In this document: positions 2,056-33,690 of the stretch, piece after piece
Layout of the letters: every line of letters starts with the position of its first letter
Position numbering within the stretch: position 1 is the stretch's first letter
NCBI GenBank assembly: GCA_012840395.1
Contig: DULL01000002.1
Coordinates: forward strand, 1-36,755
DNA: 36,755 nucleotides
Reading direction: 5' to 3'
Source: Clostridiaceae bacterium
GTDB lineage: Bacteria; Bacillota; Clostridia; Acetivibrionales; DULL01
Made by a program: the position numbers and the translations under genes
Notes under the pieces: model-generated
Seen by the model: only the letters and a program-made list of their open reading frames with translations
The model's database searches: none
Told to the model about the DNA's origin: nothing

Positions 2056-3687
2056 TTAAGAATTGTGGGCATTAAGCTGCCTGTATTCTGTAGGAGATAC
2101 TCCAATAATATTCTTAAAGCAGGTTGCAAAATAATTAGGATCATTAAAGCCTACTTCATAGGCAACATCGTACATTTTTAAAGATTGGTTCTTTAGGATC
2201 AATTCCTCTGCTTTTTTGATCCTGTATCTGCAAATATAGGATGAAAGGCTTTCACCTTTTTCCTTTTTAAATAAGTGGCTGATATAGTTAGGATGCATTC
2301 CTACATGGTCTGCAATTTTATCGAGACTGAGATTCTCATCATTATAATTCTGCTCAATATAAATTATTGCTTTTCTTATTGTTGCAGTATGTTTTACATA
2401 CCTTTTTTTAGATATATAAGCACATAATTTTATTGTAAATTCAGTAATAAACCTTTCATACTCATCAATAGTTGTAAAGCTTTCTATTTGCTCATATATA
2501 TCAATTTTATCAGTAAATTCAGTTATATCTGCTTCAAATTCATATGCTACTTGTATCAGATAATAAGTTATCCTCTTTAGCTGAATTTTAGCAAGAGCAA
2601 CGGGATATTTTTCTTTTTTCACCTTAAAATAACCAATGATTGCCTTAAGACTGACAAGGGAATTTTCCTGCTGCCCTATTTTTACACTTTGCATAAATTT
2701 TTTCTCATCTTCATAAGGATAATCAGAGGTGTCTGAATTCTGCAGAGTAGTATCACCAATATAAAAAATCTTGCTGGAACTATCAATAAACCTTTCTTCC
2801 AATGCAGCCAGTGCTTCAGAATACGACTGGGAAATCTGCAAAATATTGTTTTTTACTTCACCAATTCCTACTACTACATCTGAAGATATTTCCTTTGAAA
2901 TTCTCTTCATTAGTTCATCAATTAGTGAAAAACAATATTTTCTGGTGGAAGCTTCATCTCTTCCTGAAATAATAAGGATAGCCTTATCATATAAATGGCT
3001 TTCTACTATAACTCTTCCCGGATCATCAATCATGCTTACCAACTCATGCATACCCAGTTCCTTAATGAATTTTGCTTCAGGATCTTTACTTGTCTTGTTA
3101 TCCCTAAAACCATTTTCCATAATAAATACCGCGACCATAAAAAACTCATTTGTCAGATTCAACCCCAGATAAGCAGAAGCACCTAATATTTCTTCTTTAT
3201 TTTTTATTTCACCGGACAAAATCTTGTTTATTAATCCTGATCTGAAGAAAGGAATCATATCTTTTAATTTTTTCTTCATTTCTTCATATCTACTGTCTTT
3301 TTCCTGTTCCTTAATGATATTATCACAAATTTTTTCCAATACTTCTTCAATTTCTGTTGCTGATGAAGGTTTAAGTAAATAGTTTTCCACCCCATACTCA
3401 ATAGCCTTTTGCGCATAAGTAAACTCATCATGACCAGAGAGAATCATTACTTTTGAAGTAATACCGTCCTCACGTATTTTTTTTAACAGTTCCAGTCCAT
3501 CCATTTTGGGAAGATTCACATCTAACAGTATAATTTCAGGCTTTTCCTCAATTATTATATTATACCCCATCTCTCCGTTAGAAGCTTCAAGGATTCTAGA
3601 AATATTGAACTTATGCCACTGTACCTTTTGAATTATTCCTTTTCTAATTATTAATTCATCTTCAATTACAATAGCTTTTAGATCCAT
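2056..3687 (-). CDS. YesN-type response regulator with AraC-family DNA-binding domain
   Basis: A 543-residue cytoplasmic transcription regulator. Residues 1-120 form a receiver domain with acidic pocket IEDE (8-11), phospho-acceptor Asp56 in ILLDVNLPKMDG, Ser84 and Lys106 in LLKPSS. A long linker domain of the YesN family follows (about 160-430). The C-terminal 100 residues are an AraC double helix-turn-helix: LSLDKIADHVGMHPNYISHL and MYDVAYEVGFNDPNYFATCF, ending SPTEYRQ. Regulators of this type usually respond to a YesM sensor kinase and activate carbohydrate uptake genes. No kinase of that type is next to it. It starts 24 bp after the LacI-type gene with a GAGGAGG site, so the two are probably co-transcribed, and it precedes the transporter by 212 bp. 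Control of that transporter is inferred. Confidence 0.92.
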   Translation of the reverse strand: MDLKAIVIEDELIIRKGIIQKVQWHKFNISRILEASNGEMGYNIIIEEKPEIILLDVNLPKMDGLELLKKIREDGITSKVMILSGHDEFTYAQKAIEYGVENYLLKPSSATEIEEVLEKICDNIIKEQEKDSRYEEMKKKLKDMIPFFRSGLINKILSGEIKNKEEILGASAYLGLNLTNEFFMVAVFIMENGFRDNKTSKDPEAKFIKELGMHELVSMIDDPGRVIVESHLYDKAILIISGRDEASTRKYCFSLIDELMKRISKEISSDVVVGIGEVKNNILQISQSYSEALAALEERFIDSSSKIFYIGDTTLQNSDTSDYPYEDEKKFMQSVKIGQQENSLVSLKAIIGYFKVKKEKYPVALAKIQLKRITYYLIQVAYEFEADITEFTDKIDIYEQIESFTTIDEYERFITEFTIKLCAYISKKRYVKHTATIRKAIIYIEQNYNDENLSLDKIADHVGMHPNYISHLFKKEKGESLSSYICRYRIKKAEELILKNQSLKMYDVAYEVGFNDPNYFATCFKNIIGVSPTEYRQLNAHNS

Positions 3688-17428: not shown

Positions 17429-20400
17429 CTAAATATTCCAGTTATGTTTGATGAATTTGGTAATTTTATTTAAATATAAGCCGTCAACAGGAGGCCATTG
17501 AAAACCTATCCTGGTTAAGTACTTTTGGGTAATGTCTGAATTTATTCTAATACTGGTTTTGCCTAAAGAACGGTTTTGAAAGTACATACCTGAAACAAGG
17601 CCAGTTAATGCACCTTGTTTTTCTTTATCTCTTGATATGGTTGATATATAATTATCAAAATCCTGTCTGCTTATCACTTCAATACATATACCATTATTCT
17701 TTAAAGACTCTACTATGTCCTTAAAAACAATTGTATTGTTATTGCAGAGATGAAATACTCTCCCACAAGGTTGTCCGGAGTCAATAAGTTTTATTATGGC
17801 ACGGCTGCAATAATCTACAGGAGTAAGATCTACACTTTCCTGTAAAAGATCTTCTGAAATTCTTTTAATTTTAGCAATTGATGCTATCATGTTATAAAAT
17901 GCATTTTCATACATATTTATTTGAAACCAACCATCTGAATACCTGCCTGTCAGATTTCCCAGTCTGAATATCGCAGCTTCAAGACCTTCCTTCATTGCCC
18001 TAAAAACAAGTCCCTCAGCTTCAAATTTACTTGTAATATATACATTATTATTGAAACTTTGACCAATATAAAAGTCTTTTTCAGTGAAGCTGATTTCTTT
18101 TCCTAAGTAGTTTTCAGTATGACTTCCCGCTACACTGCATGTTGAAACATGAGACATTGTCTTACCATATGTTGTGCAAAAATCAATAACTTTCTGGGTA
18201 CCCTGGACATTAATTTCCTTAAAATCACTATAATTCCCATAATGTTTTACTATTGCTGCAGTATGAATTACATGGCTTACATCCTCTGATACAATTCTTA
18301 AATCATTATCGTTCATACCAAGATTATCCAGGGTTATATCTCCACTTATAACGTAAATCCTTGAATCGTTTATCTTTGGATACCTTCCAGGGAAATAATA
18401 GTTTAATAACTTCTTAAGTCTTTCCTTTCCTTCTTTCTTGCTCTCGCTCCGAACAAGGCAGTATACCCTGGCGTTAGTGCTCGAAACCAGTTCATTCAGT
18501 ATATGTATCCCCAGAAAACCTGTTGCTCCTGTTAGTAATATCCCACTGTCATTAATATTTCTATTTTTTATCATTCTAACAGAACTATCCTTCTGGATAC
18601 TTGAAATATTAATATCTGCCCCGATACTATGTTCATTCCAGCTATTATATTCAATATCATCAATACTCCAGGATCCTTTGATTCTCCCGGCAAGCTTGCT
18701 GATTGTCTGGTATTTGTAAAAATCATCAATAGTTAAACCCCAATTATAATGAAGAATTTTTGTCTGTACTTGGATTACTGCAAGAGAGTCTCCCCCAAGC
18801 TCAAAGAAATTATGGTTTACACTAAGTTTATCTTTCTCGATATTCAGAACTTCTGACCAGACATTTACCAGTATTTTTTCTATGTCGTCTTCTGCCGGCT
18901 TATACTCTTCTTCTGTATCAAAAAGGCGTTCAGGCTCCGGTAACTGATTTCTGTCTATCTTTCCATTTGAATTCAAAGGGAAAGCTTCAAGTATAACAAA
19001 ATACGTAGGTATCATGTAATCGGGTAACTTTTTGGAAAGGAACAATTTTAAAGAGGCAATAGATATTTTTGTATTCTTTTTAGGAACAAGGTAGGCACAC
19101 AGATACTTTCTTCCACCTTCTTCCTTATCTACAACCAGGGCCTCTTTTATTTGTTTATGAGTTAATAGCACATTGACTATTTCATCAATTTCAACTCTTA
19201 TTCCCCTGATTTTAATTTGATGGTCCATTCTCCCGATATATTCAATCTCTCCATTTCCAAGCCATTTACCCAAGTCGCCCGTTCTATATATTCTTTCTCC
19301 CGCATCAAAAGGTGAGGGAATGAATTTGCTGCGAGTCAACCCAAAATCATTTAGATATCCTTCCGCAAGCCCATGACCTCCTATACAAATTTCTCCTACT
19401 ACTCTCTCAGGCAATAACTTCAGGTCCTGGTCAAGAATAAAAATCTTTGTATTTCCAATGGGCTTGCCAATAGTAATGTTATCAGTATTGGTTAAGTCTT
19501 TTATAGTAGAATATATTGTTGTCTCTGTTGGTCCATAAGCATTATAAATTTTCGCAGATGTTAATTCTTTAAGCCTGGCAAGAAATTTTACGTCTAAAAC
19601 TTCTCCGCCAATAATTATATCGGTTAATTTCATAAAGGATATTGAACTCAACTGGTCGTCTGCCATAAGTTTTAAAGTTGAGGGTGTTGTGATAGTAATA
19701 TTGGCATTATGCTTTATTATAAGTTCATTTAATAGTCTTGGATTATTATATTGAGTATCATTGGCTAAAACAATTTTCATACCCTTTGAAAGAGGAAGCA
19801 ATGTTTCAAAAGCAAAAATATCAAAACACATGGTTGTTTTACACAGCATGGTTTTATTAGATAAACTAATATCCGCTGAGGCAACATGTATAAAGTTATT
19901 TAAAGGTTTATGGGAAAGTATAACCCCTTTTGGATTGCCTGTTGAGCCCGATGTGTAAATAACGTATAGCGGGTGGTGGCTTTGGCTGACTTTTGGTGGA
20001 TTCTCTTCACTGCATTTATTAATATCTTCACTATCAACCAGTACAATATCACATCCGGTTACCGGTACATCTTTTAATCTCTCACTCTGTGTCAAGATAA
20101 TGACTGCCTTGCTGTTTTCAATCATATATTTTATTCTTTCATAAGGATACCTGTAATCTATGGGCATGTATGCCCCGCCTGCTTTTATGACACCCAATAT
20201 TCCGGCAATCAACTCAACAGACCTGTTTAGCATTATTCCTACAATACTACCGGGGGCAATACCTTTTTTCCTTAAATACCAGGCAATCTGATTTGCTTTT
20301 TTATTCAAATCCGAGTAAGAAACCTGTAAATTTTCGAATAATAATGCAGTATTGTCAGGAGCTTTTTCTACTTGTTCTTCAAATAATTCATCTATAGTTT

Positions 20401-23400
20401 TATCTAAGGGATATTCCACTGCAGTCATATTATAGCTTTGTATTATTCTTTTTTTATCTTCTTCTGAAAGTAGTTCAATGTCTTTTATTACTTTTTCAGG
20501 ATCTTCCAGTACATCTTCCAAAATGCTGATATAATGTTCTCCCATTAGCCTAATTGTATTTGAGGTGTAGGTTCCTGCACAATAGTCAAATAAGAAAGCT
20601 ATGCCTTCATCAGTTTCCCAAGCCTCCAGTACCAGGGGAAATCTTGCAGTTTTATAACCAAGTTCGAAAGTAGTTATATTAAGATCATCCATTTTTATAT
20701 TAGGAGAATCCTTTGCGCGTAAAGAAAACATGGTATTAAATATTGGATTCCTCTCTACGTCCCTTTTCAGTTTCAGGCTGTTTACCAGGTCATCAAACTG
20801 ATAATCCTGGTTCTCAAGTGCTTTTAATGTGCAGTCCTTTACTTTAGATAAAAACTCTTTATATGTCAGATCTTTGCGGGGGAAATTTCTTAAAGCAAGT
20901 GTATTTACAAATGTGCCTATGATATTTTGAAATTCAATTTTTTTCCTTCCTGCTACCGGAGTACCAACAATTATGTCTTCCTGGCCGGAATATTTTGATA
21001 AAAGAATATTATATACACTTAGCAGGATCATAAAAAGTGTTGTCCCTGTTCCCGAAGCAAGTTTCTTTATCTTTTCTGCAACTGATTTCCCTACAGTAAA
21101 CCTCCATGAACCGACACCATTTGTTTTTGACAAATGCGGTGAAAAGTCAGTTGGCAGATTTAATACCGGAAGTTCTCCCGAAAGCTGTTCTAACCAGTAT
21201 TTTTCCTGCTTTTTCAGAGTTTCTGAATTAACCAGTTCATTTTGCCATACAGCATAGTCTTTATAATGTACCTTTAACTCTGATAAACTTTTACCGCTGT
21301 ACAAATCACCTAATTCTTTCATTAAAATATTAATAGACAAACCATCTGAAATTATATGATGGATATCAAAAAGAAGTACATGCCTGTCCTTACCTATCTT
21401 TACAAGACTTGCTCTCATAATCGGTGCCTTGGTAAGATCGAAAGGCTGGACAAAATTGTTAATTATATCTTTGATATCATTTGTTTCTCCATCAATATAC
21501 TCAATGGAAAAGTCCACTCTTTCCAAAATCTTTTGAACAGGTACTCCGTCAACCAATTTAAAACAAGTTCTTAATGCTTCATGCCTGTTAATCAGATGCT
21601 TAAAACAGTTTTCTAATAGAGTTACATCAAGTTTACCCTCAATATTTAATGCTCCGGGCATATTATATGAAGTTCCGTCCTCATCAAGCTGAGTCAAAAT
21701 ATACATTCTCTTTTGAGCAGAAGAAAGCGGATAATATTCCCGAATTCCAGCATGAGGCACTTCCGCTATCTCTTTTTTCCCCAGATTTCTTATGTGCCCA
21801 GCCTGTTCCTTTATAGTCTCCAGCTTATAAATGTCTTCTATAGAAATATTTACATTAAATTCTTTGGAAATAGCAGATACAACATAAATAATACTGAGTG
21901 AATCTCCACCAAGTTCAAAAAAGCTGTCATTTACGCTTATCTTATCAATGTTTAACGCTCTGCACCATATTTCTGACAACTTTATTTCAATTTCATCTGC
22001 AGGCAGTTCAAATCCGCTCACTTTATTTTCACTTAAGACGGGGGTGGGGAGCTTTTCCCTGTCAATCTTACCATTTGGAGTCAATGGTATCTCATTAATA
22101 TACATGAAATATGATGGAATCATATATACAGGCAGCTGTTGTGACAGAAAATTCCTGATATTACGGATTTCCTTTCCATCCTTGGGCACTATATATGCGC
22201 ATAAATACTTCCTGAAATATTGATCTTCCCTGTCGATAACAACTGCCTTTTCCACCTGCTCATGCTGAAGCAGCAGGTTTTCTATTTCACCTAGTTCTAT
22301 TCTTAGACCTCTTATCTTTACCTGATTGTCCGCTCTTCCAACAAACTCTATTTCCCCGTTGGTAAGCCATCTTCCAAGATCTCCTGTTTTATAAATATAT
22401 TCTCCTTTAACAAAAGGGCTTGGAATAAATTTTTCACCTGTCATCTGTTCTCGATTTATATACCCTCTTCCAACTCCTGCTCCTCCAATATAAATTTCTC
22501 CTGTTCTATTTAACGGAAGAGGATTTAAATATTCATCCAGTATATATATTTTTGTATTTGAAACAGGTGCTCCAATGCTTATGTAACCTGCATCCGTAAG
22601 ATCCTTAATGGTGGAATATATGGTTGTTTCTGTAGGTCCGTATCCGTTAAAAATTCTGGCTTTTGTTATACTCCTTAGCTTTTCAAGTAAAGCTATAGGA
22701 AAAGCCTCTCCTCCAAGAATAATTGTCTTTAGCCGCCTTAATCCATCTGTTATATCTCCGGTACTTAGGAACATATTCATTATTGAAGGAGTGGTCTGTA
22801 AAACATCAGCCTCGTTTTCTATAATTGCTTTATTAAGTTTCTCTGGAATTCTTTGTTGTTCTCTGTTCGCAATTATAACCTTGCAACCTTTAAGAAGAGG
22901 AATAATAGCTTCAAATATGAATATATCAAAAGAAACTGTGGTTATGGATATTACACTGGTTCTATGAGAAAATCCCACAATATCTGATGTTCCGGCCATT
23001 AAGCTGACAATTCCCCTATTGTTTAACATAACACCTTTCGGCTGCCCTGTAGAACCAGATGTATATATCACATATGCCAAACTGTCTAAAGAGCTAATAC
23101 TCTCAAGGTTGCTTCCAGGTTTGTCAGCAATGTCATCATCCTGGAATGTTACTATTTCACCTCTGAAATTATACTTTCTGACTAAATCCTTCTGTGTAAG
23201 CAAAATCTTGCTCCCACTGTCTTCGATAATAAATTTAATTCTTTCGTCAGGGTAATCAGGATCTATTGGCAAATAAGCCGCTCCCGCCTTTAGAATTCCA
23301 ATAATACCCACTATCATATCAAGAGAACGATTTGCTATTAAAGATACTATACTGTCTCTGGTTGCTCCTTTAGCTCTGAGTACTCTTGCCAGTCTGTTAG

Positions 23401-24883
23401 CTCTTTCATTGAGTTCCCTGTAGGTTAAACTTTTATCTTCAAATACAAGCGCAATATTGTCCGGAGTCCTTGATACTTGTTCTTCAAACAGTTGATGTAC
23501 AGTTCTGTCTTCTGAATAATGGAAAGTTGTATCATTAAAATCATTTAGTATTTTTTTCTTTTCATTTTCCTCCATAATCTCCAGCTGGTAAAGCTTTTTT
23601 GAAGGATCAGAAATAATGTCATTTATAAGAACCATAAGGCCATTATGGATTTGATGAATATCCTTTTCAGTAAAAAGATTTTCCAGGTAATCATAATCCA
23701 ATATCATGCTTCCGGAACTTTCCCTGTCACTTATATGTATATATAACGGATCTGTCTGATTGCCATTAAAATTCCAATGCGTTACATAATCAGTTATATA
23801 AGTGGATTTATTAAATTTTGCATTTTGATAGGATATCACTATATCATATAGGTTATCAACAAACTTGTATTTTTCTCTTAGACTTTTTAATAATAAATCA
23901 TATGGATAATTACTGTGTCTTAATATAGATCTCCATTCTCTTGATACTTGTTGTACAAAGTTTACAAAATCCAGATTTTTATCAATTTTAAGACGGAAAG
24001 GAACCGTGTTGACAAATATACCCAAAGTATCTTTTTCTCTGCTATTGGATCTATTTAAAACCGGTGTACCAATTATAATATCATTTTTTGATGTAACCCT
24101 TGCTATATAGCAAAATAAAGTTGATAAAAAAAAGATAAAAGGTGATATTTTATATTCATCACAAAAAGCATTTATCTTAAGTAATTGTTCAGGAGAAATA
24201 ATGTTAGTTTTACGTATTGAACCTGTACACCTGTTATTTCTTGTGGAATATGTTAAACTGGCTTTCTCTTCCGGTATACCATTAAATATGGAATTCCAGA
24301 ATTCTTCATCCTTTTGGAATTTATTAGAGTTCTTGTACTCAACCTCTTTTTGTATATAATCCACATAAGAAGGCTTAACATCCTCCGGAATCGGTGTATT
24401 GTTCACCAGCCTCCAGTAATATTCCAGAATCTGATTTATAACCGAGGTCATAGTCCAGGCATCGGATACTAAATGATGAGCTTTTATGTAGAAGCCGCCT
24501 TCCTGCTGGCTTAGCTTAACCAAAGCAAAATAGTATAAACTTGAATCTAAAAGTTGGAAGTTTTCCCGGGTTTTATCATCACTCCACTTTTCCAGTGCTG
24601 ATGCTTCCTCTCGGGAAAAATCCACATAGTCCAGCTTGATATATTTGTATTCAGAGATATATTGGAAAGGAGTTACGTCTTTTTCCACTATCCTGAACCT
24701 CATGGAATCATTTTTTTCAAAGGCTATATTAATAGCCCTCTCAAGAGAACAATAGTCAATTTCTCCTTTAAGAATTACTGTACCTGCAATATTTCCGATA
24801 CTTGTCCCAGGGTAATATTTTTCTATATACCATATGCCCATCTGAGGATGTGAAAGAGGATAGAACTCTAATGTATTATACAT
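17429..24883 (-). CDS. Two-module non-ribosomal peptide synthetase with reductive release (C-A-T-C-A-T-R)
   Basis: A 2484-residue synthetase. Domains in order: C1 (6-440, active motif HHLVSDAW 136-143); A1 (460-945, AYVIYTSGSTGQPKG, FDIFIFE 652-658, NGYGPTE, NGKID with Lys939); T1 (960-1035, carrier Ser995 in LGGDSL); C2 (1048-1480, HHIISDG 1175-1181); A2 (1495-1985, YVIYTSGSTGNPKG, FDIFAFE 1687-1693, Lys1975); T2 (1995-2070, Ser2033); terminal thioester reductase (2113-2484, GATGFLG 2119-2125, Thr in STCS near 2248, YITSK with Tyr2282/Lys2286). The reductase would release the dipeptide as an aldehyde or alcohol using NAD(P)H. A leading C domain suggests N-acylation of the first residue. Specificity pockets read from alignment to GrsA: A1 D-I-F-Q-I-G-G-I-Y-K, A2 D-I-F-I-I-G-A-I-Y-K; substrates unassigned, A1 somewhat glycine-like, A2 hydrophobic. 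Start ATG 24883 has GGGAGG and lies 17 bp after mutS2. No phosphopantetheinyl transferase, MbtH protein, thioesterase or exporter is visible nearby. Confidence 0.95.
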   Translation of the reverse strand: MYNTLEFYPLSHPQMGIWYIEKYYPGTSIGNIAGTVILKGEIDYCSLERAINIAFEKNDSMRFRIVEKDVTPFQYISEYKYIKLDYVDFSREEASALEKWSDDKTRENFQLLDSSLYYFALVKLSQQEGGFYIKAHHLVSDAWTMTSVINQILEYYWRLVNNTPIPEDVKPSYVDYIQKEVEYKNSNKFQKDEEFWNSIFNGIPEEKASLTYSTRNNRCTGSIRKTNIISPEQLLKINAFCDEYKISPFIFFLSTLFCYIARVTSKNDIIIGTPVLNRSNSREKDTLGIFVNTVPFRLKIDKNLDFVNFVQQVSREWRSILRHSNYPYDLLLKSLREKYKFVDNLYDIVISYQNAKFNKSTYITDYVTHWNFNGNQTDPLYIHISDRESSGSMILDYDYLENLFTEKDIHQIHNGLMVLINDIISDPSKKLYQLEIMEENEKKKILNDFNDTTFHYSEDRTVHQLFEEQVSRTPDNIALVFEDKSLTYRELNERANRLARVLRAKGATRDSIVSLIANRSLDMIVGIIGILKAGAAYLPIDPDYPDERIKFIIEDSGSKILLTQKDLVRKYNFRGEIVTFQDDDIADKPGSNLESISSLDSLAYVIYTSGSTGQPKGVMLNNRGIVSLMAGTSDIVGFSHRTSVISITTVSFDIFIFEAIIPLLKGCKVIIANREQQRIPEKLNKAIIENEADVLQTTPSIMNMFLSTGDITDGLRRLKTIILGGEAFPIALLEKLRSITKARIFNGYGPTETTIYSTIKDLTDAGYISIGAPVSNTKIYILDEYLNPLPLNRTGEIYIGGAGVGRGYINREQMTGEKFIPSPFVKGEYIYKTGDLGRWLTNGEIEFVGRADNQVKIRGLRIELGEIENLLLQHEQVEKAVVIDREDQYFRKYLCAYIVPKDGKEIRNIRNFLSQQLPVYMIPSYFMYINEIPLTPNGKIDREKLPTPVLSENKVSGFELPADEIEIKLSEIWCRALNIDKISVNDSFFELGGDSLSIIYVVSAISKEFNVNISIEDIYKLETIKEQAGHIRNLGKKEIAEVPHAGIREYYPLSSAQKRMYILTQLDEDGTSYNMPGALNIEGKLDVTLLENCFKHLINRHEALRTCFKLVDGVPVQKILERVDFSIEYIDGETNDIKDIINNFVQPFDLTKAPIMRASLVKIGKDRHVLLFDIHHIISDGLSINILMKELGDLYSGKSLSELKVHYKDYAVWQNELVNSETLKKQEKYWLEQLSGELPVLNLPTDFSPHLSKTNGVGSWRFTVGKSVAEKIKKLASGTGTTLFMILLSVYNILLSKYSGQEDIIVGTPVAGRKKIEFQNIIGTFVNTLALRNFPRKDLTYKEFLSKVKDCTLKALENQDYQFDDLVNSLKLKRDVERNPIFNTMFSLRAKDSPNIKMDDLNITTFELGYKTARFPLVLEAWETDEGIAFLFDYCAGTYTSNTIRLMGEHYISILEDVLEDPEKVIKDIELLSEEDKKRIIQSYNMTAVEYPLDKTIDELFEEQVEKAPDNTALLFENLQVSYSDLNKKANQIAWYLRKKGIAPGSIVGIMLNRSVELIAGILGVIKAGGAYMPIDYRYPYERIKYMIENSKAVIILTQSERLKDVPVTGCDIVLVDSEDINKCSEENPPKVSQSHHPLYVIYTSGSTGNPKGVILSHKPLNNFIHVASADISLSNKTMLCKTTMCFDIFAFETLLPLSKGMKIVLANDTQYNNPRLLNELIIKHNANITITTPSTLKLMADDQLSSISFMKLTDIIIGGEVLDVKFLARLKELTSAKIYNAYGPTETTIYSTIKDLTNTDNITIGKPIGNTKIFILDQDLKLLPERVVGEICIGGHGLAEGYLNDFGLTRSKFIPSPFDAGERIYRTGDLGKWLGNGEIEYIGRMDHQIKIRGIRVEIDEIVNVLLTHKQIKEALVVDKEEGGRKYLCAYLVPKKNTKISIASLKLFLSKKLPDYMIPTYFVILEAFPLNSNGKIDRNQLPEPERLFDTEEEYKPAEDDIEKILVNVWSEVLNIEKDKLSVNHNFFELGGDSLAVIQVQTKILHYNWGLTIDDFYKYQTISKLAGRIKGSWSIDDIEYNSWNEHSIGADINISSIQKDSSVRMIKNRNINDSGILLTGATGFLGIHILNELVSSTNARVYCLVRSESKKEGKERLKKLLNYYFPGRYPKINDSRIYVISGDITLDNLGMNDNDLRIVSEDVSHVIHTAAIVKHYGNYSDFKEINVQGTQKVIDFCTTYGKTMSHVSTCSVAGSHTENYLGKEISFTEKDFYIGQSFNNNVYITSKFEAEGLVFRAMKEGLEAAIFRLGNLTGRYSDGWFQINMYENAFYNMIASIAKIKRISEDLLQESVDLTPVDYCSRAIIKLIDSGQPCGRVFHLCNNNTIVFKDIVESLKNNGICIEVISRQDFDNYISTISRDKEKQGALTGLVSGMYFQNRSLGKTSIRINSDITQKYLTRIGFQWPPVDGLYLNKITKFIKHNWNI

Positions 24884-24900
24884 AATGACCTCCCATTTGA

Positions 24901-27288
24901 CTATTTAATCTCTGCTATAGTAACACCCATTTCTCCTTCTCCATAACTTCCGAGTCTAAAAGATTTAACATGGGGATGTCCTTTCAGAAACTGGTGTATT
25001 CCCTTTCTTAACGCACCAGTTCCTTTTCCGTGTATAATTGTTATTTCCTTCAATCCTGCAATACTTGCATCATCAAGAAACTTATCTATTAGCTCGCATG
25101 CTTCATCCACTGTGGTCCCTCTCAGGTCTATCTCGGTAACAGCAGCCATGGCTTTTGACATAGAAATCTTTCCCGAACCTACTTTATGAACCTGGCTCTT
25201 TTGTTCATCTATAAGTTTAAGTGTACTAATATGGACATTGATTTTCATTATACCTGCCTGTACAATTACCTCACCATCTTTATCAGGAGGACTTATTACG
25301 ATCCCTTTCTGATTCAGATGAAGAATTAGTACACTATCTCCCGGTTTCAAATTTTCAGGAGCTTTGGCGTTTTCTTCTATGGGTATTAATGGAACTGCCA
25401 AGGCCTGGTCCAATTTGTCAAGTTCATTTTTTAGCTTAAGTCTCAGTTCTTCAGCTTCTTTGTTCTTTTTGGCAATCTCGGTCTCTCTTTCCAGATTTCT
25501 TAATCTCTCAAGAATTTCCTGAGATTGCTCTTTAGCAGAAATTAAAATCTTTTTGGCTTCTTCCCTGGCTTCTCTCAACAGTTTTTCCTTTTCAGCCTCA
25601 AATTTCTTCTTTTGCCTTTCCATTTCATCCTTCAATTTTTCTATTTCGATCCTGTAACTCTCGGTTTTCATTCTCTCAGCAAGGGTTTTCTGCCTATCCT
25701 CTTCCATAGACATAAGTATATCTTCAAACTGAATATTTTCACTGCTTAAAAATTCTTTGGCCTTTTTGAGTATTTCCTCCGAAAGTCCCAGCCTTCTGGA
25801 AATGGCAAAGGCATTACTTTTTCCGGGTACTCCTATCAGGAGATTGTAAGTCGGCCTTAAAGTCTGAACATCAAACTCACAGGAAGCATTCTCAACTCCC
25901 GGTGTTGATATAGCATATAATTTCAGCTCACTATAATGTGTAGTTGCGACTACAGTAGCCCTGATCTGCCTAAGATGCTCTAATATTGCCATAGCAAGGG
26001 CTGCTCCTTCGGAAGGATCTGTCCCTGCTCCAAGTTCATCAAAAAGCACAAGAGATTTTTCATCCGCCTCATCAAGTATCTGTACAATATTAGTCATGTG
26101 GGATGAAAAAGTACTAAGACTTTGTTCTATACTTTGCTCATCTCCAATGTCTGCAAAAACATGCCCGAAAATTCCCATGACTGTGCCATCATTTGCAGGG
26201 ACATGAAGTCCTGCTTGAGTCATTAACACAAATAGGCCCACTGTCTTTAATGTAACTGTTTTACCACCGGTATTAGGACCTGTTATAACAATAGTACTTA
26301 TAGAATCTCCTACCCAGAAATTTATAGGTACTACTGTTTTTTTATCCAGCAACGGGTGTCTTCCTTTTTTAATAATAATACGTCCTTCAGTATTTAGCCT
26401 GGGACAAACGCAATTATATTCAAGGCTCATCCTTCCCTTGGCAAATATAAAATCCAGTCTTGCCAGCAGATGAACACTGGATAAAAGCAAATCTGTAATA
26501 TTTCTTACATCATCGGTCAATTCCCTGAGTATTCTTTCTATTTCTGCCTGTTCTTTAATCCTGAGCTGTCTGATATCATTATTTGCATTTACAACAGACA
26601 TTGGCTCAATAAAAATTGTAGCTCCGCTGGAGGACATATCATGAACTATTCCGGGAACTTCATTCCTGAATTCCTGCTTTACCGGAATAACATAACGGTC
26701 TCCTCTAACTGTGACAATAGCATCCTGCAAATATTTCTGATATGATGAAGATTTTATTAATTCATTTAACCTGTCCTTTATAGAATTCTGCTTGTCCCTT
26801 ATCTGTCTTCTTATATTACCTAAAAGAGGGCTGGCCTCATCGGATAATTCTTCATCATTTATAATCGACATCTCAATTCTGTCTTCTAAACGCTTATTAG
26901 TAACCAAACCGCTTATCAGTTTATTTATTATGCTGTCGGGATTAAAGTCCTTATCCCGTTCACCAGTACCGTTATAAGCTTTTAAATTTCTGCAGGCCCT
27001 TAAAGTATCACCAATTCCAAGTAATTCTCCTGGATTTAGCACTCCGCCTAATTCAAGCCTTTTAAGGCTGCTCCTGATATCATGGATGCCTCCTAATGGA
27101 GGATTACCTTTTCGCAGAATATAGCTTACTGCATCATCTGTTTCATCCAGCATTTCCTTTATACGGTGCTGGTCAGTTTCTGGTAAAAGCTGTTCGGCTA
27201 TCTCCCTTCCCAATACAGAAGTTGTCATATTAGCCAATATTCTGATTATCTTGTCAAATTCCAACACCTTTAAGGTTCTTTCATGCAT
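24901..27288 (-). CDS. mutS2: MutS2 ATPase/endonuclease (Smr domain)
   Basis: A 795-residue MutS-family protein lacking the mismatch-recognition domain. Relatives suppress recombination or rescue collided ribosomes (the latter shown in Bacillus). Seen: N-terminal MHERTLKVLEFDKII, core IVHDMSSSGATIFIEP, Walker A TGPNTGGKTVTLKT (about 336-349), Walker B region LVLFDELGAGTDPSEGAAL, VATTHYSELK, a long charged coiled coil (about 500-620) and a C-terminal Smr nuclease domain (EIDLRGTTVDEACELIDKFL; ITIIHGKGTGALRKGIHQFL). Start ATG 27288 is chosen because the family starts there and the longer reading (to 27342) adds 18 unrelated residues; its GGAG is 11 bp off. It has its own promoter and is followed closely by the NRPS gene. 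Confidence 0.95.
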   Translation of the reverse strand: MHERTLKVLEFDKIIRILANMTTSVLGREIAEQLLPETDQHRIKEMLDETDDAVSYILRKGNPPLGGIHDIRSSLKRLELGGVLNPGELLGIGDTLRACRNLKAYNGTGERDKDFNPDSIINKLISGLVTNKRLEDRIEMSIINDEELSDEASPLLGNIRRQIRDKQNSIKDRLNELIKSSSYQKYLQDAIVTVRGDRYVIPVKQEFRNEVPGIVHDMSSSGATIFIEPMSVVNANNDIRQLRIKEQAEIERILRELTDDVRNITDLLLSSVHLLARLDFIFAKGRMSLEYNCVCPRLNTEGRIIIKKGRHPLLDKKTVVPINFWVGDSISTIVITGPNTGGKTVTLKTVGLFVLMTQAGLHVPANDGTVMGIFGHVFADIGDEQSIEQSLSTFSSHMTNIVQILDEADEKSLVLFDELGAGTDPSEGAALAMAILEHLRQIRATVVATTHYSELKLYAISTPGVENASCEFDVQTLRPTYNLLIGVPGKSNAFAISRRLGLSEEILKKAKEFLSSENIQFEDILMSMEEDRQKTLAERMKTESYRIEIEKLKDEMERQKKKFEAEKEKLLREAREEAKKILISAKEQSQEILERLRNLERETEIAKKNKEAEELRLKLKNELDKLDQALAVPLIPIEENAKAPENLKPGDSVLILHLNQKGIVISPPDKDGEVIVQAGIMKINVHISTLKLIDEQKSQVHKVGSGKISMSKAMAAVTEIDLRGTTVDEACELIDKFLDDASIAGLKEITIIHGKGTGALRKGIHQFLKGHPHVKSFRLGSYGEGEMGVTIAEIK

Positions 27289-27358
27289 ACATATAATTAC
27301 TCCAAACCTACATATTTTTACTAAATTATTTATAAAGTTCAATTTTTATTGATTTATA

Positions 27359-31223: not shown

Positions 31224-32261
31224 ATGTTATTGATGTGGAAAGAAATAATGGAGCAGCCTTCGGCAATTGAAAGAAATTTTGCTTCTAATTCTCCAAAGAT
31301 CGATCAAATTCTGGAAGAAATAAGTAATAGGAATATTCATTGCGTTTATACTGCAGCAAGAGGAACCTCAAATCATGCTGCTTTCTACGGCAAATATGCA
31401 TTGGAAATGACAGTTGGAATACCGGTTTCTTTAGGTGCTCCTTCAATTACAACAATTTATGGCAAGAAAGTGAATTTTGAAAATTGTTTGGTTATAGCAA
31501 TCTCCCAGTCAGGAAAAGCAGCAGATGCTTTAGAAGTCATTAAAGAAGCCAACCGCCAGGGAGCTTTAACAATTAGCATAACGAATTATCCAGATTCTCC
31601 CTTGGCTCTGGAAGCTAAATATCATCTCTGTTGTGAAGCAGAACCCGAATTAAGTGTAGCTGCTACAAAAACTTTTACATCACAGATGTTTCCTTTTGCA
31701 TTACTGGCTGCAAAATGGGCTAAGGATAATGAATTAATTCAAGAGCTTAAGAAAATACCTGAAAAACTAACTGAGACTTTTAAATTAGCTGATATTATTG
31801 AAAATAGGGTTGAGAGATACCGCTTTATGAATGAGTGCTTTGTACTTTCAAGAGGTGCCAACTATCCCATAGCCCTTGAATCAGCTCTTAAAATCCAGGA
31901 GACTACATATGTAAGAGCAAAAGCATTCCCTACTTCCGAATTCTATCATGGACCCATAGCAATGCTTGATAGGGAAATCCCTGCCATACTCTATGCTCCT
32001 GAAGGTCCTTCCTTTAAGAATTTGCAGGAAATGGCCCTCAAGCTGAAAGATAAAGAAGTTGAAACTGTTGTTGTGTCAAATAACGCCGAAATGCTTTCTA
32101 TGGGAACAACTGCATTCAGAATACCTGAGACCAGCAATGACCTAATTTCGCCATTCCTTTGTGCTGCTGTTGCCCAGATGTTTGCATGTAAACTATCCCT
32201 GGCAAAAGGATTAAACCCAGATAGTCCAAGAAGCTTGAGCAAGGTAACCATAACTTTATAA
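31224..32261 (+). CDS. Double-SIS sugar-phosphate isomerase/deaminase (GlmS C-terminal-like, NagB-II type)
   Basis: A 345-residue cytoplasmic enzyme with two SIS (sugar isomerase) domains and no glutamine amidotransferase domain, so it is not a full GlmS. Domain 1 (about 30-170) has YTAARGTSNHAAFYGKYALE, ISQSGKAADALEVI and the conserved ELSVAATKTFTSQ. Domain 2 (about 195-335) has LSRGANYPIALESALKIQET and AFPTSEFYHGPIAML, with the family ending PRSLSKVTITL. Such stand-alone proteins act as glucosamine-6-phosphate deaminases or related aminosugar or fructosamine-phosphate enzymes. No amino-sugar transporter or deacetylase is adjacent, so the exact substrate is open. Start ATG 31224 follows GGGAG by eight bases. 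Confidence 0.88.
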   Translation: MLLMWKEIMEQPSAIERNFASNSPKIDQILEEISNRNIHCVYTAARGTSNHAAFYGKYALEMTVGIPVSLGAPSITTIYGKKVNFENCLVIAISQSGKAADALEVIKEANRQGALTISITNYPDSPLALEAKYHLCCEAEPELSVAATKTFTSQMFPFALLAAKWAKDNELIQELKKIPEKLTETFKLADIIENRVERYRFMNECFVLSRGANYPIALESALKIQETTYVRAKAFPTSEFYHGPIAMLDREIPAILYAPEGPSFKNLQEMALKLKDKEVETVVVSNNAEMLSMGTTAFRIPETSNDLISPFLCAAVAQMFACKLSLAKGLNPDSPRSLSKVTITL

Positions 32262-32262
32262 T

Positions 32263-32337
32263 CAGGAGCAAGGGGACCAGGAGCAAGGGGACCAGGAGCA
32301 AGGGGACCAGGAGCAAGGGGACCAGGAGCAAGGGGAC
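32263..32337. repeat. Five perfect tandem copies of a 15-bp unit
   Basis: The unit CAGGAGCAAGGGGAC is repeated five times without a mismatch, starting two bases after the SIS-gene stop. The last copy supplies the outer end of the left arm of the hairpin that follows, so the array looks like a slippage expansion of the hairpin's edge. It is GC-rich in an AT-rich region. Confidence 0.95.
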
Positions 32338-32386
32338 GGTTCTTCTGCTTCCGTCAAAACGGAAGCAGAAGAACCGTCCCCTTGCT
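32327..32386. repeat. Perfect 28-bp inverted repeat with CAAA loop (palindromic mobile-type repeat)
   Basis: Left arm 32327-32354 and right arm 32359-32386 are exact reverse complements around a 4-nt loop. The core GGGGACGGTTCTTCTGC / GCAGAAGAACCGTCCCC resembles a type of interspersed palindromic repeat I know from clostridial and other genomes (from memory, not searched). It lies between convergent genes but has no T tract on either side, so it is not a typical intrinsic terminator, though it could still stop or stabilise both transcripts. Confidence 0.9.
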
Positions 32387-32396
32387 TCCTGGAGGT

Positions 32397-33578
32397 TTAT
32401 ATTTTGCAGCATTCCTTTAATACTTCAACTGCATAGTCTATATCATCATAGCTCAACACATCTGACACCTGAATACGAATTCTTGCCTTCCCTTCTGGAA
32501 CAACCGGATAACCAAATCCAATAGCATATACACCTTTTTTCAACATAGCATCTGCTATCCTTATAGCCTCAGCAGTATCACCTATCATAATAGGTATAAT
32601 AGCACTGTCTCCTTCCAGAGGTGACAAACCAGCATTACGAAGTGCCTTTCTCATATATTCGGTCTTTTTCTTTAATGAACCAACTATTTCAGGATTTACC
32701 TTCAAATAATTTACAGCAGCAAGAGAAATTCCTGCTATTACTGGCGGAAGTGAATTGGAGAATAAGTGAGGTCTTGATTTCTGAACAAGCATGTCAATAA
32801 CAGATTTTTTAGCAGCTATAAATCCTCCTCCTGCACCTCCCAAAGCTTTACCGAAAGTTCCCGATATTATGTCAACTTTACCAATCATGCCATAGTATTC
32901 TTCTGTTCCTCTTCCTGTCTTTCCTATTACACCTGTAGCATGGGAATCATCCACCATAACAAGAGCACCATATTTCTCCGCAAGATCTACTATTCCTGGC
33001 AAAGGTGCGATATCTCCCTCCATGGAAAATACCCCATCTGTAACTATCAATGCAGTACCTTTGTCTCCGGCTTCCTTCAATCTTTCCTCCAGTGAATCAA
33101 GGTCAGCATGTTTATAGGTACACCTGTTAACTCCCTTCCCCACCAACCTGCAACCATCAATAATGCTTGCATGATTTAGTTCATCAGATATCACCGTATC
33201 CCCGGGACCTAATAATGCTGGTATAACTGCAGTATTTGCATTCCAGCAGGAAGTATATGTAAGTGCGGCTTCTCTGCACAGAAACTCTGCCACAGTTTCT
33301 TCGAGTTTCCTATGTATATCAAAAGTACCACATATAAACCGTACACTTGCGGCACCTGCACCGTATTTTTCTAAAGCCTCAATTCCTCCTCTGATGATTT
33401 CAGGTTTATCAGTCAGACCAAGATAATTGTTTGAGCAAAGAATTATAACCCTGCCATATCCTTCTATTGCAGTTTTATTAGACAGTTTCTCAGTAAGATA
33501 CTGAAGTTTCTTATATGTTCCTGTTTTTTTAAGCTCTGTTAATGTAGAATCAAGATTTTCATAAAAAAGTTTTTTCAA
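32397..33578 (-). CDS. kbl: Glycine C-acetyltransferase (2-amino-3-ketobutyrate CoA ligase)
   Basis: A 393-residue PLP enzyme of the alpha-oxoamine synthase family that splits 2-amino-3-ketobutyrate with CoA to glycine and acetyl-CoA. Seen: LCSNNYLGLTDKPEI, GAGAASVRFICGTFDIHRKL, SDELNHASIIDGCRL, VMVDDSHATGVIGKTGRGTE and SGTFGKALGGAGGG with PLP lysine 244 (same number as in E. coli Kbl). Start TTG 33578 is preferred: GGAGGGAGG lies at the right distance, and the N-terminus MKKLFYENLDSTL then matches the family; a GTG at 33596 lies upstream of that site. The related 8-amino-7-oxononanoate synthase is less likely because tdh lies directly upstream. Confidence 0.93.
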   Translation of the reverse strand: MKKLFYENLDSTLTELKKTGTYKKLQYLTEKLSNKTAIEGYGRVIILCSNNYLGLTDKPEIIRGGIEALEKYGAGAASVRFICGTFDIHRKLEETVAEFLCREAALTYTSCWNANTAVIPALLGPGDTVISDELNHASIIDGCRLVGKGVNRCTYKHADLDSLEERLKEAGDKGTALIVTDGVFSMEGDIAPLPGIVDLAEKYGALVMVDDSHATGVIGKTGRGTEEYYGMIGKVDIISGTFGKALGGAGGGFIAAKKSVIDMLVQKSRPHLFSNSLPPVIAGISLAAVNYLKVNPEIVGSLKKKTEYMRKALRNAGLSPLEGDSAIIPIMIGDTAEAIRIADAMLKKGVYAIGFGYPVVPEGKARIRIQVSDVLSYDDIDYAVEVLKECCKI

Positions 33579-33690
33579 TGATTCCTCCCTCCTCACATTA
33601 AATAACTTCTATCATCAAGTTCAGATACCTGAGCAAATACATACATATGATTAACTTAAGATATACGATTAACTCATTATATATGATGAA

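Follow-up and report, generated by a model that had tools for sequence, protein, structure and literature searches.

How a tandem array of short units came to be fused to the outer edge of a perfect hairpin is the question raised by a 135-nt gap between two convergent genes in the stretch of DNA analyzed here (the window, 36,755 nucleotides). Almost all of the gap is REP material. Tandem Repeats Finder gives an array at 32263-32337 with a period of 15, 5.0 copies and a 100% match, and an inverted repeat has two 28-nt arms (32327-32354 and 32359-32386) that are 100% complementary around a 4-nt loop. The initial annotation had described a 15-bp tandem array joined to a perfect 28-bp hairpin and had equated the array unit with the outer edge of the hairpin's left arm. 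Both descriptions hold, the last unit being that edge. The annotated start at 32263 is also exact, and the annotated end at 32386 falls 5 nt short, as the palindrome extends to 32391. The extended palindrome has one unpaired base, and its outer left stem reads GGAGCA where the family consensus has GGAAGCA. The features of the locus are collected in Table 1.

Table 1. Features of the locus in window coordinates
Feature	Position	Strand	Basis
Flanking gene, SIS-domain sugar-phosphate protein; stop one base before the array	31224..32261	+	domain match
Four extra head-only units CAGGAGCAAGGGGAC (truncated REP 5' ends) in tandem	32263..32322	+	repeat finding and family-wide comparison
Fifth 15-bp unit, the outer edge of the left REP	32323..32337	+	repeat and inverted-repeat search
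Left REP unit; core GGGGACGGTTCT at 32332-32343	32325..32352	+	core search
Right REP unit, inverted; core at 32381-32370	32361..32389	-	core search
REPIN, the palindrome of two inverted REPs	32323..32391	.	inverted-repeat search and folding
Convergent flanking gene, glycine C-acetyltransferase (Kbl) type	32397..33596	-	profile match

Folded as DNA, the extended palindrome reaches -40.8 kcal/mol (z -15.1), with 0 of 200 shuffles as good. Folded as RNA, the hairpin region is strong on both strands (-63.3 kcal/mol each). By eye, the array is the longest of the head arrays examined in its genome. Three other identities were considered for the locus and set aside. A CRISPR-like array is ruled out by units that are contiguous, without spacers, and a terminator or attenuator by the lack of a T run. 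The 15 Rfam matches all involve microRNA models below their gathering scores and are taken to be drawn by the long perfect hairpin. Elsewhere the window encodes, on the minus strand, a 2484-aa two-module non-ribosomal peptide synthetase (17429-24883) with two condensation, two AMP-binding and two carrier stretches and a terminal reductase-type NAD_binding_4 domain, as well as a MutS2-type protein with an Smr domain (24901-27342).

Within the window the exact core is confined to this element, and a third core match at 1136, with 2 mismatches, is near what chance would give. The picture differs across the genome (2,844,806 bases on 119 contigs), where AGCAAGGGGACNGTTC is matched with at most 2 mismatches at 108 places, against 3 for a reversed-pattern control, and where blastn returned 107 matches at E values up to 10. 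The palindrome had been annotated as a member of a dispersed family, with a genome-wide count of its core proposed as the check. That count gives about 100 copies, in support of the claim, and the contrary outcome named at the time, no other copy in the genome, did not occur.

A closer examination covered 54 stretches, 52 of them around listed places, together with loci L031 and L063. These hold 99 exact copies of the core GGGACGGTTCT and 118 cores with at most 1 mismatch, a few of which may be chance, such as one in a tRNA-like stretch of L107. The unit consensus is GGAAGCA-N-R-GGGACGGTTCT-NN-TGCTTCC. A lone unit folds weakly, at -2.3 to -6.2 kcal/mol; in shuffle tests the left unit of the window was no better than its shuffles (134 of 200), with 9 of 200 for the right unit and 10 of 200 for the consensus. 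Larger hairpins arise where exact cores form close inverted pairs, of which there are 21 in the 54 stretches, 12 of them at 37 nt core to core. The two variable letters are common to both arms in 15 of the 21 pairs (shuffle mean 3.4, 0 of 10,000), an agreement that would fit unit-wise insertion or arm-to-arm correction. From the perfect stem, the initial annotation had read recent arrival or active maintenance, and either may apply. Direct neighbors have these letters in common in 10 of 20 cases (shuffle mean 2.8, 1 of 10,000).

Two REPs in inverted orientation make up the hairpin, which by its sequence is an element of REPIN type, and the element family is of the REP/REPIN type. The inverted units lie in one hairpin, the copies are many and mostly extragenic, and a RAYT gene with a matching REP beside it is found in the same genome (L063). 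Clusters (n = 55, L063 excluded) lie between tandem genes in 29 cases, convergent genes in 16 and divergent genes in 3; 4 are inside an ORF, here meaning one of 80 aa or more, and 3 have an unresolved context. Own-genome copies inspected by eye have no GTAG, GTGG or CGTC tag at the foot of the hairpin; GGAAGCA stands at the outer end, and the flanks are unlike one another. A search for an orthologous empty site found none: the 59 other genomes listed all belong to families other than that of this genome, and wherever a single genome matched both flanking genes, the listed matches read as lying on different contigs. A second kind of local duplication is seen in L084 (G000:C29, about 840-945), where a longer unit of about 47 nt, a REP with its flank, is doubled whole in tandem.

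The genome has 8 matches to Pfam Y1_Tnp. The candidate RAYT (C9:3-764, locus L063) lies on a contig other than that of the array and scores 58.1 bits against Y1_Tnp (PF01797; cut-off 23). Its frame is cut by the contig end after 254 residues, and four relatives end at 257-259. Upstream of the gene are two REP groups of three cores each, six cores in all. Against NCBIfam NF047646 (REP-associated tyrosine transposase) the protein scores 76.8, just under the cut-off of 80; four relatives score 79.1, 83.3, 88.9 and 80.1, and the long RAYT L065 of the same genome 35.9. The residues N59, H60, V61 and H62 and also Y119 are invariant in the 5 aligned proteins, and, following the general description in PMC3733652, we take the first four to be the HUH motif and Y119 to be the catalytic tyrosine. 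The relative from Anaerovirgula matches the solved chain 4er8_A, named 'TnpArep' and presumably the E. coli protein, at 6.5e-05. A C-terminal helix-turn-helix is weakly matched, by HTH_23 in three of the four relatives (E 0.014-0.067) and by HTH_IclR in the fourth (0.042), all below the Pfam cut-off. The genome also holds three longer RAYT-like genes (L064, L065 and L066 at G000:C67, C31 and C36) with frames of 306-308 aa.

A scan of named genomes found five relatives of the RAYT. Four are Clostridia-like (Anaerovirgula multivorans, Alkaliphilus pronyensis and two Clostridiaceae MAGs), and in each of them the gene is flanked on either side by units that carry the same core as here. The remaining and most distant relative, from an Elusimicrobia MAG (L165, 37% identity), has no core in its locus. 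These relatives suggest a Clostridia origin for the window. The wider sample comprised 26 RAYT-clade loci and 8 loci of the longer type returned by the searches, leaving out L165 and clade matches without a returned locus. Correctly oriented GGGAC-core units lie within 200-250 nt on both sides of the gene in 19 of the 26 clade loci, on one side in 6 and on neither in 1; such a unit faces the gene in 25 of 26. Among the longer RAYTs, examined in other genomes, 1 of 8 has a correctly oriented GGGAC-core unit, and that one lacks a stem of 5. Core matches in the wrong orientation occur at L174 (1), L179 (2), L181 (2, with a self-complementary core) and L190 (1).

The core at the gene-flanking units is GGGGACGG, the commoner form, or at some loci GGGGACAG, and the stems differ by species (GAAGCA/TGCTTC, TAATCA/TGATTA, GAACA/TGTTC, GGGACA/TGTCCC, GAGTCA/TGACTC and others). 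A stem of at least 5 is formed by 46 of 56 gene-flanking units with their own partner sequence, against 924 of 2988 swapped pairs. Some loci entering the swapped pairs have similar stems, and in a few cases the stem picked by script is not the evident one. The loci show a fixed core kept beside transposase genes and a stem that may change provided that pairing holds. Exact copies of GGGGACGGTTCT number 239 in genome G006, 214 in G359 and 149 in G069; the window's genome has 48. In some genomes, such as G187 and G112, stems of more than one type are seen by eye among the head arrays. L167 (G026:C44) has, at 3437-3491 on its minus strand, three copies of a direct repeat of another kind, 27 nt long and ending in GGGGACGGGTAA, at a distance of about 1.2 kb from a RAYT gene belonging to this clade.

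Head-only units are a recurrent feature of the family. Counting those no more than 40 nt from a core, the window's genome has 22 partial heads: 21 share the core's orientation, and 20 of the 21 run into a following unit, the exception being at L100. Partial tails number 2, against the 22 heads. In the 94.8 kb examined, 11 partial heads lie more than 150 nt from any core. Among the heads directly before an exact core (incomplete units, n = 20), 14 carry the variable letters of that REP, where shuffles give a mean of 3.6 and random genomic REPs a mean of 3.0 (0 of 10,000 in each case); the other 6 are unlike the next REP. The initial annotation had suggested that the array grew from the palindrome by slippage or by repeated insertion; growth from the palindrome is supported, and these counts favor slippage.

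The same arrangement was sought across the class. With the pattern GGGGN{5,14}GGGGACGGTTC, 48 of the 391 genomes (39 of 222 genera) gave 342 rows in total, against 5 for the reversed control. A CCCC control gave 48 rows in 20 genomes, and for a tail analogue there were 92 rows, spread over 41 genomes. The totals of 342, 48 and 92 are sums of printed columns; they count rows rather than sites, a run of G or C counting one site repeatedly in the CCCC control as elsewhere, and a small number of head rows come close to a complete tandem unit. As read, about 36 of the 92 tail rows are the stem's own GTTC and about 10 are the core of the next unit, which leaves about 46, and tail-type matches across the class are not negligible. 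In genomes with other stems, the apparent head arrays are arranged like those of the window's genome.

In 71 arrays from ten genomes (the window's own and nine others, with stretches chosen from listed places of matching genomes rather than at random), the stretch preceding the head agrees with the adjacent unit over a mean of 5.13 nt, and with other copies of the same genome over 2.87 nt (p 2e-6). The local match exceeds the mean of the other copies in 49 arrays and does not in 22. These figures come from a comparison repeated with G runs stripped; the first version used exact suffixes, which were confounded by G-run register, and had the local match above the mean in 42 of 71 arrays and not in 29 (p 0.002). 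The upstream unit stops 0, 1, 2, 3 or 4 letters into the core after GGGG in 32, 20, 14, 4 and 1 arrays, respectively, as seen with a head pattern that is blind to much longer upstream units.

The explanation that we regard as probable is a REPIN dispersed by way of the genome's RAYT, with the array as a secondary product of replication slippage at the edge of the hairpin. The REP unit is a stem, GGAAGCA/TGCTTCC, around a conserved core, RGGGACGGTTCT, and two inverted copies make up the REPIN, a miniature element that the RAYT-type Y1 transposase probably moves or copies in single-stranded form. During replication, a polymerase entering the hairpin arm would stall a few bases inside the core, at a position that varies, retreat to the hairpin's base and then copy the head again. 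Truncated heads would be left behind, in tandem along the outer side, and ordinary slippage could lengthen the array to five as soon as it had two exact units. A restart near the hairpin base, a variable stop in the arm, growth on the outer side and a local origin are what a stalled, slipping polymerase would give. Slippage at a template hairpin has been documented in vitro, as described in the part of the report available (PMC4134008). We infer that the heads were made by replication slippage and not by an enzyme.

The alternative that survives best, though we judge it unlikely, is repeated insertion, in which the RAYT places further REPs or REPINs within or next to one already present and the heads are what remains of older copies that were interrupted. 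A nested look is indeed seen in some clusters, among them L072 and L097, where truncated units lie on either side; complete REPs in direct tandem occur as well. Interrupted copies should leave tails as well as heads, and tails are rare in the window's genome. Moreover, a newly inserted copy would not be expected to carry its neighbor's letters in 14 of 20 heads where 3-4 are expected, or to resemble the adjacent unit over other copies. Because the heads carry the variable letters of the neighboring REP and resemble the adjacent unit more than other copies, local tandem duplication by slippage would fit the array better than repeated insertion.

Still less probable, in our estimation, is that the RAYT makes the heads itself by cutting the 5' foot of a REP and joining it to a free 3' end in a partly copied neighbor, the enzyme setting the restart point. 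On reading the sequences, restart points do lie within about 0-3 nt of the stem's outer end, a regularity that the hairpin base predicts equally without an enzyme. According to the available portion of the work on E. coli TnpAREP, that enzyme acts on single-stranded REPs, which it cuts and joins on the 5' or the 3' side of the hairpin (PMC8266576), and a paper on BIMEs, as far as its available text goes, calls strand slippage alone unlikely to explain strain differences and proposes RAYT as the driver (PMC2817692). Truncation after GGGGAC recurs at three sites of the window's genome (L031, L096 and L097) and could reflect a preferred cut. Across the arrays, truncation points are spread over 0 to 4 letters beyond GGGG within the reach of the pattern, unlike those of a sequence-specific cut. 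We consider slippage likelier than enzyme-made heads, given the spread of the stop points and the match between heads and their neighbors. A local terminator-like or mRNA-end hairpin beside a chance minisatellite is extremely improbable: the element does occupy the space between convergent genes, and the RNA of either strand folds strongly, but 0 terminator-like T runs were found, clusters lie between tandem genes more often than between convergent ones (29 and 16 of 55), and the roughly one hundred related copies, being dispersed, refute it as a sole account. Protection of mRNA is possible as a side effect of the hairpin.

In the literature searched, which covered few subscription journals, neither the present REP family nor head-only arrays or such growth of REPs were found described. 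A bolder reading, which we consider doubtful, is that in Clostridia a TIRYT-type RAYT clade has a REP/REPIN system of large size in which the GGGGACGGTTC core is fixed and stems are exchanged freely, and whose hairpins grow one-sided 5'-head arrays by a process specific to the element, namely an enzyme-assisted restart at the hairpin foot. What looks like a RAYT group reported without REPs is now linked to a REPIN family that is abundant in Clostridia-like genomes. The one-sided arrays of heads resemble a record, left by nature, of the points where copying starts again at a DNA hairpin. As the head pattern occurs in 39 of 222 genera, slippage and enzyme-made growth can be tested against each other.

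Several known systems are related to the one found here. Like the REPINs of Bertels and Rainey (2011), as described in the available part of that paper (PMC3116915), the present elements are inverted REP doublets in hairpins, dispersed between genes and linked to a RAYT, with tandem clusters known. Unlike them, the present units are without a GTAG foot and have the conserved part inside the stem, and the tandem unit is a truncated 5' head, whereas that text describes whole REPINs with flanks and evenly spaced REPs. Short palindromic units paired between genes also characterize the GTAG and CGTC REP super-families in the available text of Di Nocera (2013; PMC3733652), where CGTC units are reported without a transposase. 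No such tag was seen at the hairpin foot here.

The TIRYT genes treated in the same paper are flanked by inverted repeats (TIRs), some sharing the motif GGGGWSAS. Its available text describes some TIRs as self-complementary, some families as moderately abundant and many as dimers or clusters like REPs, and calls TIRs unrelated to GTAG REPs (PMC3733652). The terms 'Firmicutes' and 'Clostridi' have 0 occurrences in the main text as available. The likeness to a TIRYT or TIRtron lies in a Y1 HUH transposase gene between inverted repeats with a related core: GGGGACAG, found at some loci, fits GGGGWSAS, and the commoner GGGGACGG has G for A at position 7. Unlike TIRs, the repeat found here is a unit that forms a hairpin, its core fixed and its stems varying by species while still pairing, in about 100 copies here and 239 exact cores in another genome.

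Subclass 2.1 takes in 20 of 26 TIRYTs and 291 of 292 RAYT group 1 proteins, according to the part of the study available (PMC6006769), which reports a C-terminal helix-turn-helix, matched in the present clade weakly and below cut-off. That part reports no REP-like sequences near subclass 2.1 genes; here, REP-like hairpins adjoin the gene, as the stems of at least 5 in 46 of 56 units indicate. Judged from sequence comparison, the present system looks like the TIRYT/subclass 2.1 group, yet with hairpin REPs and REPINs in large number.
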